A stretch of DNA of 49,559 nt from a bacterium (lineage in GTDB: Bacteria > SZUA-79 > Acidulodesulfobacterales > Acidulodesulfobacteraceae): the NCBI GenBank assembly GCA_021798015.1, contig JAJZYP010000003.1, positions 1 to 49,559 of the forward strand. The letters run 5' to 3'. Each line of letters opens with the position of its first letter. Position 1 is the first letter of the stretch. The position numbers were made by a program, and so were the translations under genes. Of this stretch, positions 3,088-45,144 are shown piece after piece. The notes beneath the pieces were generated by a model. It ran no database searches, was not told where the DNA came from, and saw only the letters and a list, made by a program, of their open reading frames with translations.

Positions 3088-3488
3088 TGACCGCCGCCGA
3101 TATTCCTTTTACAAAATTTAACGATAACGATATAGCCCGACCATGGTTACCGGTTACAATTCATAATCCGCATACAAAACTATCCATAAAAGTATATGGC
3201 TTAATCGATACGGGCGCCGATGAATGCGCTATTCCTGCTGAATACGCTCCGTTACTGGGTCATAATTTACAAGCCGGTATCCGCAAAACAATTAGCACCG
3301 GCAATGGCGCAACTACTGCTTATGCGCATACATTATGCTTTAAAACGGACAGCATAGAAATTGAGAACGTGTTGATAGATTTCATGCCAAACTTGCATGT
3401 CGTATTATTAGGAGTTAAAAGTTTTCTAAGCAACTTTATTCTTACCGTAAATTATAAAAATTCCACTTTTAGTTTGACTAAACCTTAA
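3087..3488 (+). CDS. Retropepsin-like (clan AA) aspartic protease
   Basis: Active-site motif GLIDTGADECAIP; start codon overlaps the preceding stop (TGATG). Confidence 0.7.
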   Translation: MTAADIPFTKFNDNDIARPWLPVTIHNPHTKLSIKVYGLIDTGADECAIPAEYAPLLGHNLQAGIRKTISTGNGATTAYAHTLCFKTDSIEIENVLIDFMPNLHVVLLGVKSFLSNFILTVNYKNSTFSLTKP

Positions 3489-3546
3489 AAATACTTTCAA
3501 ATTTGCGTTTTAAGGTTAGAAAGGGGACAGATAGGGTATAAAACCG

Positions 3547-3621
3547 TTAACCTTTTTTATCGCTCTTATCCCGCATTTCGTCCACCGTCTTTTTTAAAGT
3601 TTCCGGCACCGGATGGCTATA
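3547..3621 (-). pseudogene. Displaced C-terminal fragment of a tyrosine recombinase
   Basis: Minus-strand frame reads YSHPVPETLKKTVDEMRDKSDKKG*, matching RYSHLVPETLRKAVDDVFNKK of the upstream integrase; out of frame with the phosphoesterase ORF. Confidence 0.7.
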
Positions 3622-5326
3622 TAATTTCGCCAATTTTGTGCGGTTTAAAATCCCCGATTGCTTCCACTGAAACGTTTTTACAGAATGAAGCTATTTTAAT
3701 TGATTGCGAATGTGTGTGACCGTGTATGTTTAAATTACAGTTATAATTTTTAAAAATTTCATAAAGCTCTTTGGTTATCCCGGCAAAATTCTCCATATCC
3801 TCAACGATATCATTTACGACCGGAAAATGCGAAAACATAATCCTCTTGCCGTTAATTTCGGTTATAATAGCATTAGCGTATTTATGTTTTGTGGGTATTA
3901 TATCGTAAGAACCGTCTATAAATAAATGAATGTTTTCGATAACATTAATGCCTAATTCCTTGTAGGTGGCATTATCGGCGTCGTGATTTCCTTTAATCAA
4001 ATAAATCCGACCGTTAAGTTCCTTTATATATTTCGTTATTTTGTTTTTTCCGCCCCAAACGGCATCGCCTAAATGTAGGATATTATCGTTTGCAGATACG
4101 ACGGAATTCCAATTATCTGTCATTTTACAGTCAGCCGCCGCGGTTAAATCAACGTAATTAGAAACATCCCCTTTAGCAGAATTAACCAGAGTGCTTCTTA
4201 ACGGTTCAGACCGCATAATATTTGCGTGTCCAAAATGCGTGTCGGAAATAACGAATGTATTTGCGGCTAACCAAGTTTGCGCTTGCATTACAATATTTTT
4301 TTTGTTAAACACGTCGTCAACCGCTTTACGTAAAGTCTCCGGGACCAGATGACTATACCGCTTTGTCATTTGCGTCGTTCTATGTCCGAGCAGCTCGCCG
4401 GTTATAAAAAGGCTCGTCCCGCCCATAACCATTTTACTTGCAAATACGTGGCGTAGGTCATGAATCCTTAAATCCTTAAGTCCGGCGTTCTTGCAGGCGG
4501 TATGAAAAGAACGCTTAAAATTAGCTAATTTAGCCCCGTTCCTTTCAAATACATACAAACTATCCTGATTTTTTTCGACTTGCCTTAAAAGCTCTTTTAG
4601 GGGCTTTGAAATCGGAATATATCTATCGTATTTAGTTTTAGTTCCTTTAATGGCTATAACGTCGTTCTTTAAGTCCGCGTCGTCCCATTTTAAGTTTAAG
4701 GCTTCGCCTTTGCGGCAGCCGGTAAGGATTAAGAAAGTAATTAAATCTCTTGTAAGCTTATTCGTAGCACCATTAATCAGCTTGTTAATATCGTCGTCCG
4801 ATAAAGTTTTAAGGCGGGATAGTTCGTTAAGTTTTCTAACGCCTACACAAGGGTTCTTATCTAGATAAGTTAGCTCTATACAAAAATTAAAGAAATTTGA
4901 AAGCGTTATAATCTCAAGATTAACAGACCTAAAATTTATTTCGCTTTCTTTTTTGCCGATATTTTTTGGCAAGTTCATAATTTCAAGTTTTCTTTGAAGC
5001 TGGTAATTTTTAATATCAACCGAAGCAATATTATTTAATTCTTTATTCCCAAATATTAATAAGAAATGTTTAGCGGCAACTAACTTACGGTCAAGGTTTT
5101 TACCCTTTTGCTGTTGTTTTATATATTGGTTAAAAACTTCTTTGAAAATATATACGGCTTTGTTTTTAACAGGTATATCAAATCTATTTCTAACTACGTC
5201 GGCATGTATCGCCGCTGCGACTTCCTCGGCGACGGATTTATCTTTGGTCCGACAGGACTGTTGGTAATGCTTGCCGTCGTGCCTAAATTCTACCCAAAAT
5301 ATGCTGCCGCGCTTATAAAGTCTCAT
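3617..5326 (-). CDS. Tyrosine recombinase/integrase fused to a calcineurin-like metallophosphoesterase
   Basis: N-terminal ~340 aa integrase (TGCRKGEALNLKW, HDLRHVFASKMVMGG, ELLGHRTTQMTKRYSHL); C-terminal ~230 aa MPE with ISDTHFGH, ILHLGDAVWGG, LIKGNHD, MFSHFPV, NIHGHTHS. Confidence 0.85.
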   Translation of the reverse strand: MRLYKRGSIFWVEFRHDGKHYQQSCRTKDKSVAEEVAAAIHADVVRNRFDIPVKNKAVYIFKEVFNQYIKQQQKGKNLDRKLVAAKHFLLIFGNKELNNIASVDIKNYQLQRKLEIMNLPKNIGKKESEINFRSVNLEIITLSNFFNFCIELTYLDKNPCVGVRKLNELSRLKTLSDDDINKLINGATNKLTRDLITFLILTGCRKGEALNLKWDDADLKNDVIAIKGTKTKYDRYIPISKPLKELLRQVEKNQDSLYVFERNGAKLANFKRSFHTACKNAGLKDLRIHDLRHVFASKMVMGGTSLFITGELLGHRTTQMTKRYSHLVPETLRKAVDDVFNKKNIVMQAQTWLAANTFVISDTHFGHANIMRSEPLRSTLVNSAKGDVSNYVDLTAAADCKMTDNWNSVVSANDNILHLGDAVWGGKNKITKYIKELNGRIYLIKGNHDADNATYKELGINVIENIHLFIDGSYDIIPTKHKYANAIITEINGKRIMFSHFPVVNDIVEDMENFAGITKELYEIFKNYNCNLNIHGHTHSQSIKIASFCKNVSVEAIGDFKPHKIGEII

Positions 5327-26693: not shown

Positions 26694-27437
26694 TTATATA
26701 TTAATTGCTTTATTTTGTAATTCGTTGATTTTCGATACGGCACTTTTTGAAAGATCGTAAAGTTTTGCCAGAATATCAAATTGAATAGGTGTTTTTTCCG
26801 CACATCCCTGAATCTCTATTATTTTCTCTGAACCTGTTAAAACAAAGTTAAAATCTAGCTCGGCAACGGAATCTTCAGAATAATCGAGGTCAAGCAAAAT
26901 TTCGCCGTTTACTATTCCAATGCTAATTGCGGCAACAGAGTCATAAAACGGCATTTTTTCAATTTCATCGCGTTTTATTAGATTTAAAAATGCCAGATAA
27001 GCAGCAACATAAGCCCCGGTTATCGAAGCGGTCCTTGTTCCGCCGTCCGCGCTTATAACATCGCAATCGATTAATATAGTTATGTCGGGAAAATCCGAAA
27101 AATTAATAACGGACCTGAGCGACCTCCCTATTAACCTTTGTATTTCCTGTGCCCTTCCGTTAATTCTTCCTTTTACCGAATCCCTTGGTATCCTGCTTTG
27201 CGCCGACCTCGGAAGCATAGAATATTCGGCTGTTAGCCATCCTTCGCCTTTATCTCTTAAAAATGGGGGCACTTTATAATCAACCGAAGCGGTGCAGATA
27301 ACCTTAGTATCGCCCGCTTCGATTAAGCACGACCCTTCCGCATATTTCATATAGCCGGGGGTTATAACCACCGGCCGCATTTCGTCGTTCCGCCTGTTCC
27401 GTTTCCTTGCCATTCGGACATTCCCCTTAATCGCCAT
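26694..27437 (-). CDS. rph: Ribonuclease PH
   Basis: RRNDEMRPVVITPGYMKYAEGSCLIEAGDTKVICTASV, GEGWLTAEYSMLPRS, DCDVISADGGTRTASITGAYVA. Confidence 0.96.
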   Translation of the reverse strand: MAIKGNVRMARKRNRRNDEMRPVVITPGYMKYAEGSCLIEAGDTKVICTASVDYKVPPFLRDKGEGWLTAEYSMLPRSAQSRIPRDSVKGRINGRAQEIQRLIGRSLRSVINFSDFPDITILIDCDVISADGGTRTASITGAYVAAYLAFLNLIKRDEIEKMPFYDSVAAISIGIVNGEILLDLDYSEDSVAELDFNFVLTGSEKIIEIQGCAEKTPIQFDILAKLYDLSKSAVSKINELQNKAINI

Positions 27438-27447
27438 GACCGCCCTG

Positions 27448-27484
27448 ATTAATGGGGGCAGATTTGAAATCTGTCCCCATTAAT
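27448..27484. repeat. REP-like palindrome (GGGGNCAG...CTGTCCCC type)
   Basis: attaatgggggcagatttgaaatctgtccccattaat, near-perfect 37-bp palindrome, intergenic. Confidence 0.7.
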
Positions 27485-27521
27485 CGTAACCCATTTTTCT
27501 TTCTTGCCAAAGTATTTTCTC

Positions 27522-27779
27522 CTAATCCCACTTTTTATTCTTAATGAAAAATATGCAAAGGTCTTTCAAATTAATTACATTAAGTAATTTTACGCTAATA
27601 AGCGAGCATAATGCAGGAATATCGTTTAATAAAGAATCCTTGTCCGAAACTACCATTAAAACATCATCCTGTTTTAAAACCTTAAGTTTTTGGACGACCG
27701 CCCAAACGGGCGGCCCTCAGCAAAGCCCCCTGATATCAAGGCTGATGTTCCCATAATTTAAGTAAGATTTGTCCTCCAT
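27522..27779 (-). CDS. TusA-family selenoprotein (in-frame UGA read as Sec), 85 aa
   Basis: From ATG 27779 with RBS aaggag: MEDKSYLNYGNISLDIRGLC[U]GPPVWAVVQKLKVLKQDDVLMVVSDKDSLLNDIPALCSLISVKLLNVINLKDLCIFFIKNKKWD*. U (27717-27719) sits at the catalytic Cys of the TusA D-x-R-G-L-x-C-P-x-P motif; homology continues through DIPALC to the TAG stop. Confidence 0.87.
27689..27706 (-). promoter_or_regulatory. Putative bacterial SECIS hairpin
   Basis: Minus strand UUUGGGC-GGUC-GUCCAAA: 7-bp stem, 4-nt apical loop beginning with G, loop starts 17 nt after the UGA. Confidence 0.6.
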
Positions 27780-27805
27780 TTTTTCTCCTTAATTAATTTA
27801 GCCGC

Positions 27806-28240
27806 TCAAGCCGCTTTAAGGGCGGCATCTAAAATACCGTTGACAAAAGAAGGGGATTCATCATTCCCAAATTTTTTAGCTATTTCCACAGATTCGTTAA
27901 TAATAACATTTTTAGGTGTTTCAGGATGGAATAAAATCTCATAAATCGACAGCCTTAAAAGATTTCTGTCAACTCTTGACATCCTTTCTATCGACCAATT
28001 TTTCGATACCTTTTTAATAATGTTATCTATCTTTTCTAAATTAAGTAAAGTCCCTTGTGAAATATCGAAAAAAAAATCGTAAATCTGGGAGGTGTCTTTT
28101 TTAAAACCTTCTCTAACAAGGCTTTCGGAAGCAAATTCATTATAAAAACTGTTTATCCTTGTACTTAATCCCTTTATATCCCCGTCTGTTTCATATAAAA
28201 ACTGCAATGCCAGTTCCCTCGCCTTTCTTCTTTTTGTCAT
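27806..28240 (-). CDS. nusB: Transcription antitermination factor NusB
   Basis: RKARELALQFLYETDG...RVDRNLLRLSIYEILFHPETPKNVIINESVEIAKKFGNDESPSFVNGILDA. Confidence 0.95.
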   Translation of the reverse strand: MTKRRKARELALQFLYETDGDIKGLSTRINSFYNEFASESLVREGFKKDTSQIYDFFFDISQGTLLNLEKIDNIIKKVSKNWSIERMSRVDRNLLRLSIYEILFHPETPKNVIINESVEIAKKFGNDESPSFVNGILDAALKAA

Positions 28241-43608: not shown

Positions 43609-45144
43609 ATGTATCAGGTGCTTGCCAGAAAATACAGGCCAAAAATTTTCGATGAAATAGCGGGGCAGGATAACATTGTCCAAACGCTTAAAAATGCCGT
43701 TATTCACGACAGGATTGCCCATGCCTACATATTTTCCGGCACAAGGGGAGTCGGTAAAACATCTATTGCAAGAATACTTGCAAAATCGATTAACTGCGAA
43801 AACGGTCCTACGATAAATCCGTGCGGCGTTTGCTCCGCATGTGTCCAGATTCAAAACGGCAGCTCGGTGGATGTTATAGAAATCGACGGGGCATCGAATA
43901 CCGGCGTTGACGCAATAAGGGATTTAAAGGAAAACATAATATATCTGCCGCAGAGTTTTAAATATAAAATTTACATCATCGACGAGGTTCACATGCTTTC
44001 AAATAGCGCCTTTAATGCTCTTTTAAAGACGTTAGAAGAGCCTCCCGCCCACGCTAAATTTATTTTTGCAACAACCGAATTGCACAAAGTCCCCGAAACT
44101 ATTTTATCGAGGTGTCAAAGGTTTAACTTCAAAAGAATACCGACCGATATAATTTACCGTAAATTAAAAGAGATTGCGGCTGCGGAAGACATTTCCGTTA
44201 CCGATGAAAACTTAATGATTATGGCCTCTTTGGCTGACGGATCCGTTAGGGACTCTCTCACAACCTTTGACACTATTATATCGTACTTCGGAAAGGATAT
44301 AAAAGAAGATATATCGCCCGTTCTTGGATTAACCGTTAAAGCAGCGATCGTTGATCTTATCGGCGCAATTTTTAAGAAGGATTATGAAGCTTCCATCAGG
44401 CTGGCAAAAGAAATATACGACTCCGGGGCAGATATAAGGCAGTTTATAAAACAGCTTGCATTCTACATCAGAAATATTTTAATAATAAAATTAAAATATA
44501 AAGATATGATTAACGATATGACGGATGAAGAAATAAATGCTTTAATTCCCCTTGCCGGACAAACACGCTCGGAGGAACTTCTCGATATGATAGATATATT
44601 ACTTAACTCGGACGCCAAATATCAAAAAATCTCTTCCCCTTCATTAATGCTTGAACTTACTCTTTTCAGGCTTATAAATATTCCATCGAAACATAATGTA
44701 ACGGAACTCATAAATAAAATCGATAAATTTATATCGCTTAAAACAAATCCGGCAGAAAATCCAAAAATGGAGGGTAAAACCGGCAAGTTTAATTTAAACG
44801 ATGAGGCTCTGACACCGCCTCCGCCCACATTTGACTCATCCTTTGCACTTCGTCAGCCGCTGCCGAAAACTGCCGCTCCCGCTCCGGCGCAAACGGACAG
44901 GCAAGTTAAAATAGCGCCTAATGACGGTAATAATACGCACGGGGGATCAGACGAATTCTTTGCCCATTTCGATAAAATCGATGAAAAATTAGCTCAAGAA
45001 AATAGTAAGCAGGAAACTAACGCTTTAATAGATGACGGCATTAAAGCCAACGAAGCTGAAAAACCCGATGAAAGCATAATCATGGAAAGCATAAAAGACA
45101 TTTTCGGGAAAGATATCGAAAGGATAGATAAGACTAAAAAGTAA
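43609..45144 (+). CDS. dnaX: DNA polymerase III subunits gamma/tau
   Basis: YQVLARKYRPKIFDEIAGQDNIVQTLKNAV, FSGTRGVGKTSIARILAKSINCENG, IDEVHMLSNSAFNALLKTLEEPP. Confidence 0.97.
   Translation: MYQVLARKYRPKIFDEIAGQDNIVQTLKNAVIHDRIAHAYIFSGTRGVGKTSIARILAKSINCENGPTINPCGVCSACVQIQNGSSVDVIEIDGASNTGVDAIRDLKENIIYLPQSFKYKIYIIDEVHMLSNSAFNALLKTLEEPPAHAKFIFATTELHKVPETILSRCQRFNFKRIPTDIIYRKLKEIAAAEDISVTDENLMIMASLADGSVRDSLTTFDTIISYFGKDIKEDISPVLGLTVKAAIVDLIGAIFKKDYEASIRLAKEIYDSGADIRQFIKQLAFYIRNILIIKLKYKDMINDMTDEEINALIPLAGQTRSEELLDMIDILLNSDAKYQKISSPSLMLELTLFRLINIPSKHNVTELINKIDKFISLKTNPAENPKMEGKTGKFNLNDEALTPPPPTFDSSFALRQPLPKTAAPAPAQTDRQVKIAPNDGNNTHGGSDEFFAHFDKIDEKLAQENSKQETNALIDDGIKANEAEKPDESIIMESIKDIFGKDIERIDKTKK

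Follow-up and report, generated by a model that had tools for sequence, protein, structure and literature searches.

A putative selenocysteine-containing variant of the sulfur carrier TusA, conserved in acid-mine-drainage bacteria and present in at least one other lineage

The small TusA-like gene described here is very probably, on comparative evidence, a genuine selenoprotein gene in which an in-frame UGA is read as selenocysteine (Sec). It lies in a 49,559-nucleotide stretch of bacterial DNA, called the window, and its product, Sec-TusA, would carry Sec at the position of the sulfur-carrying cysteine. The protein is called a variant because Sec replaces Cys and U-G-P-P replaces the canonical C-P-x-P, with the aligned position kept. 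Judged from the genomes surveyed, the variant is conserved in acid-mine-drainage bacteria and is present in at least one other lineage. As a whole, the gene is best explained as that of a selenoprotein that acts as a sulfane sulfur or selenium carrier, and this explanation is considered probable.

The first-pass annotation of the window had proposed a minus-strand frame of 85 amino acids between nusB and rph, preceded by a ribosome-binding site and interrupted by one UGA, and such a frame is indeed found there (Table 1). It starts with ATG, and its product is MEDKSYLNYGNISLDIRGLC-U-GPPVWAVVQKLKVLKQDDVLMVVSDKDSLLNDIPALCSLISVKLLNVINLKDLCIFFIKNKKWD. The order ribD-ribE-ribBA-ribH-nusB-secTusA-rph is preserved throughout the family wherever the contig reaches, with one exception (L035), in which no rph was detected at this position. 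A palindromic GATTAATGGGGACAGATTTCAAATCTGCCCCCATTAATC stretch at the 5' end of rph, between it and Sec-TusA (about 27440-27490, minus strand), resembles a small inverted-repeat insertion and is absent there in L010. Read-through TGA sites that pass a simple bSECIS filter number only two in the whole window. The other one, a second Sec candidate with its TGA at 44855 on the minus strand, lies on the strand opposite a long ORF and was attributed to chance.

Table 1. Features in and around the Sec-TusA gene (positions in the window)
Feature	Position	Strand	Basis
Sec-TusA CDS, 85 aa with putative Sec21, stop TAG	27522..27779	minus	read-through translation, Pfam match
In-frame UGA (putative Sec codon) at the position of the sulfur-carrying cysteine of TusA	27717..27719	minus	homologue alignment
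Ribosome-binding site AAGGAG	27785..27790	minus	sequence
nusB, upstream neighbor	27806..28240	minus	ORF, conserved gene order
rph (RNase PH), downstream neighbor	26694..27437	minus	ORF, conserved gene order
Antisense ORF, chance	27544..27756	plus	stops in most relatives
bSECIS hairpin UUUGGGC-GGUC-GUCCAAA, loop 27699-27696	27689..27706	minus	covariation
Competing hairpin directly after the UGA, strong here, not conserved	27696..27715	minus	folding, alignment

Read through the UGA, the product scores 32.2 bits against the Pfam TusA family PF01206, above the cut-off of 28.6, in agreement with the family membership claimed earlier. Its score against the NCBIfam TusA equivalog NF001423 is 36.4 bits, below that model's cut-off of 78. 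In a profile alignment, residue 21 falls on the CPEP cysteine of Escherichia coli TusA, the sulfur-carrier position on which the first-pass annotation had placed the UGA, and the conserved DIP-[AG]-[FL]-C segment that it had pointed out is present as DIPAxC, aligned with DIPGFC of the E. coli protein. The AlphaFold model (pLDDT 86, pTM 0.76) predicts the two-layer alpha/beta TusA fold, with Sec21 just before helix 1 (residues 23-33). Among PDB structures, the TusA chain of the E. coli IscS-TusA complex matches the predicted model best (TM 0.77/0.85). The TusA fold and the carrier position of Sec21 are held with very high confidence.

With the window's own genome counted, a search of 60 relatives recovered Sec-TusA orthologues from 27 genomes belonging to one family. 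This family is the Acidulodesulfobacterales/SZUA-79 acid-mine lineage, and the 27 copies gave an alignment of 26 distinct sequences. Every copy (27/27) contains a single in-frame TGA, always at this codon, a regularity far greater than chance would give. None of the family orthologues found has Cys, Ser or another stop in its place, and the gene is missing from a few genomes that are incomplete. The residues D-I-R-x-L-C-U-G around the UGA are invariant in the family proteins, and conservation on both sides in every orthologue bears out the earlier remark that protein similarity is continuous across the codon. Downstream of the UGA, dN/dS (Nei-Gojobori) is 0.07-0.30 in nine of 10 pairs, as is typical of purifying selection; the remaining pair gives 0.82-0.86, a value that rests on only about four differences. 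A sequencing error, one of the objections foreseen for the original proposal, is excluded as the source of the UGA because the 26 other family genomes keep it and none has another stop there. The antisense ORF reported along with the frame does exist, but it is interrupted by a stop in most relatives and was ruled out as a real gene.

The signal that would direct the recoding is a hairpin that starts 10 nt after the UGA and has a 7-bp stem (alignment columns 14-20 paired with 25-31) that closes a GGUC loop, at a distance of 17 nt from the codon. The loop is invariant in the family alignment. In the stem, 95.7% of cells are paired, and in three pairs both sides have changed in a compensatory way. 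The covariation score was reached by none of 500 shuffles, slid controls were far lower, and RNAalifold recovers the same conserved helix. The codons under the loop and the 3' half of the stem are frozen as GCG-GTC-GTC, with Ala always GCG and the two Val always GTC; elsewhere in the gene, Val is encoded by all four codons. The loop resembles that of the E. coli fdhF SECIS, a likeness that serves as a lead only.

The published bSECIS model has a loop of 3-9 nt with G in the first two positions, a stem of 4-16 bp, a distance of 16-37 nt from UGA to loop and an energy threshold of ≤ -7.5 kcal/mol (PMC13188914). The loop of 4 nt with G in its first positions, the stem of 7 bp and the spacing of 17 nt in Sec-TusA fall within the model. 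Folded in isolation (from UGA+7), the hairpin reaches -7.4 kcal/mol in the window, just short of the threshold, and -5.0 to -10.4 kcal/mol in relatives; the region from the UGA to +45 reaches -8.1 to -21.8 kcal/mol, often through another fold. For the window sequence, the fold of lowest predicted energy downstream of the UGA is not the conserved hairpin but the competing one that overlaps it. Of its cells, 74.5% are paired, and it was rejected as the SECIS as it shows no covariation.

The machinery for Sec is complete in the window's genome, where all four of the genes on which the original proposal depended were found: selA (579 bits), selB (300 bits) and selD (358 bits), and selC as two tRNA-Sec genes with the anticodon TCA. 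The presence of tRNA-Sec was also established in six other Sec-TusA carriers. Together, UGA conservation, SECIS covariation and the sel machinery support the earlier claim that the UGA is decoded as Sec. The two tRNA-Sec genes (L001:933-1028 on contig C112 and L002:1501-1596 on C37) are near-identical, the relatives tested have one, and the pair may represent strain redundancy in the draft assembly or a true duplication. The selD gene (L067:1486-2442, contig C24 of this genome, G000) is itself a selenoprotein gene with one in-frame TGA, and selA is on the same contig. A second, distant SelD-like protein (L068, G000:C1:28150-28935; 55 bits) is encoded on the contig of the dsr operon.

Further UGA copies are found in a Nitrospirae-group phylum. 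A scan of the genome collection gave one (L066) in a different gene neighborhood, in a genome whose assignment as host could be affected by a MAG binning error. A survey of 396 genomes of the phylum brought two more (L122 and L123), for a total of three. These two form a divergent subfamily, with the sequence MKIIDVRGLC-U-GDPVLKVFEEI..., and have a perfect 7-bp hairpin whose loop, GGUCU, is as far from the UGA as in the family SECIS. All three genomes have tRNA-Sec. The divergent gene directly precedes a response-regulator/histidine-kinase pair that is PhoB/PhoR-like (L122:1895-4216, L123:536-3006), an adjacency that might reflect redox or selenium/sulfur sensing; this neighborhood names no sulfur partner. 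In one of the copies (L123:536-877), the C-terminal part contains an insertion, PPLDRRDACPTSRSGVSPDRF, that keeps the frame and seems to derive from a repeat. No Sec-TusA outside the window's family was found among 386 relatives and domain-wide genomes, and none in a phylum of four genomes. Among the TusA-family matches listed, an in-frame UGA occurs only in these Sec copies, at the sulfur-carrying position.

Homologues with CC in place of CU (L124, L125 and L126) also occur; their genomes include G407 (L124), a congener (L126) and the window's own (contig C127). At L126, two CC-type TusA genes lie in tandem (3380-3637 and 3986-4219), the first with a disrupted motif, DITDLCSSCCLGV, and adjoin a TetR regulator. 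In the maximum-likelihood tree, the CU and CC proteins form one group with support of 98/91, apart from other CPxP TusA proteins. Two divergent CPxP rows stand at the base of this group, and the tree is compatible with one or two origins of Sec.

In the proposed mechanism, SelB and Sec-tRNA(Sec) would decode the UGA, directed by the bSECIS hairpin. The product would be a free-standing carrier of the TusA fold in which Sec21 stands for the sulfur-carrying cysteine of CPxP (D-I-R-G-L-C-U-G-P-P). At the start of helix 1, Sec21 may accept sulfane sulfur or selenium as Sec-Se-S(H) from a cysteine desulfurase, a rhodanese or a DsrE protein and pass it on, with a protein of the DsrE/DsrEFH-DsrC type as acceptor. 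The adduct could be resolved by the invariant Cys20 next to it, through a Cys-Sec selenylsulfide. With glycine in place of the first CPxP proline, the transfer chemistry may differ from that of TusA. Carrier chemistry as such is given a little better than an even chance, and the first-pass label of a seleno-sulfurtransferase-like carrier is a fair name for this putative function. In the window's genome, a dsr operon encodes DsrE, DsrF, DsrH, DsrC and DsrB next to Sat, and there is also a cluster of a NifS/IscS-like desulfurase, IscU/NifU and a TusA with CPVP. Sec-TusA is one of several TusA paralogues there, and the housekeeping role more likely falls to the CPVP protein, beside the desulfurase and the IscU/NifU scaffold. 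An earlier study reports dsrEFH in the Acidulodesulfobacterales, together with notable transcripts of "sirA and sirA-like genes" (PMC6776010). The DsrE-type relay, the desulfurase and TusA clusters and these transcripts point to a Sec-based carrier that feeds or drains a DsrE-type relay as the most likely role. Confidence in the identity of any transfer partner is low; the rib-nusB-rph context names none, and no genomic link to a specific partner was found.

Other readings of the UGA itself are highly improbable. It could be a true stop, with the gene a pseudogene or two pieces, and what favors this is only that UGA normally stops here, as it does in nusB, which ends in TGA. Conservation in all 27 orthologues and purifying selection after the UGA led to its rejection, the SECIS covariation and the second lineage argue in the same direction, and translation resumed at the next ATG would give a product without the first helix. 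Decoding as another residue, by general recoding or suppression, is given an equally small chance: no supporting point was found, TGA also ends nusB and three family copies of tusA (L024, L026 and L033), and the full sel machinery is in the genome.

For the function, one could consider Sec-TusA to be mainly a thiol/selenol redox protein, a reductase or desulfurating reductase that forms a Cys20-Sec21 selenylsulfide and does not pass sulfur on. The adjacent C20 and U21 are invariant in all Sec copies, the Cys versions keep CC, the first proline of CPxP is lost, and a CC homologue adjoins a thioredoxin-fold gene and a YgaP-like membrane gene. However, the TusA features D-x-x-G-L and DIPAxC are retained and none of the genes linked to Sec-TusA encodes a reductase partner; a mainly redox role is judged clearly less likely than that of a carrier, though not remote. 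Even less probable is a carrier specific for selenium, whose Sec21 would bind the element for delivery towards SelD or for sensing of its supply, as proposed for YedF/SirA-like proteins. Genes for SirA-like/YedF proteins are linked to SelD (PMC2432076, PMC5322559), and YedF models match Sec-TusA weakly, but no sel gene is among its neighbors and the rib-nusB-rph location holds family-wide. YedF identity was rejected, as Sec-TusA is without the C-terminal DsrE-like domain.

The preferred reading, a Sec-based carrier, can be compared with known systems. E. coli TusA (YhhP; PDB 3lvj, 1dcj; PF01206) shares the fold, the length, D-x-x-G-L-x-[C/U]-x-x-P and DIP-x-x-C, whereas Sec-TusA has Sec for Cys, the adjacent Cys20 and Gly for the first Pro of CPxP. 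YedF/SirA-like proteins (TIGR03527) have a TusA-type domain in common with it, and their genome context ties them to selenium (PMC2432076, PMC5322559). However, YedF proteins combine a CPXP cysteine with a second, DsrE-like domain and are not described as selenoproteins themselves, whereas Sec-TusA is a single domain of 85 aa with Sec inside the TusA domain. Catalogued selenoproteins of sulfur relays likewise have Sec in sulfur-trafficking families, but the DsrE-like (UxxC), rhodanese-like (UxxS/UxxG/CxU) and YeeE/YedE (GUxSG) proteins belong to families other than TusA (PMC13188914). In the DsrE3A-DsrE2B-TusA system of Metallosphaera cuprina, TusA carries sulfur species on its cysteine, with DsrE proteins as partners (PMC4175335). 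The window's genome, too, has DsrEFH and a TusA-TusA-DsrE cluster. Yet tusA of M. cuprina is Cys-based and clustered with its partners (PMC4175335), and the Sec gene is instead in rib-nusB-rph.

A 2026 review counts 119 prokaryotic selenoprotein families and subfamilies, including DsrE-like, rhodanese-like and YeeE/YedE proteins, and TusA, SirA, PF01206 and COG0425 were not found among them (PMC13188914). Earlier selenoprotein catalogues are likewise without the TusA/SirA family, and the only known connection of SirA-like proteins with selenium metabolism is the linkage of their genes to SelD (PMC2432076, PMC5322559). No link between TusA and selenoproteins was found in the part of the literature covered, and the deep-Sep groundwater-MAG study (Deng et al. 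2026) may include the family. Sec-TusA would add a family to the catalogued prokaryotic selenoproteins. It would also be an example of how a small gene cut in two by standard gene callers can go unnoticed through an entire bacterial family.

In its fullest form, the proposal is a tentative one, given somewhat less than an even chance: Sec-TusA may be a Sec-dependent sulfur/selenium carrier, the first such TusA, through which the TusA-DsrEFH-DsrC relay in acidophilic sulfate-reducing/sulfide-oxidising bacteria would gain a selenol step, with the two lineages reached by one ancient or two independent Cys-to-Sec changes. As a defined target of only 85 aa, the protein is small. TusA is a central and very widespread sulfur carrier, and a selenol in place of its thiol asks what a selenol may do better in sulfane transfer.
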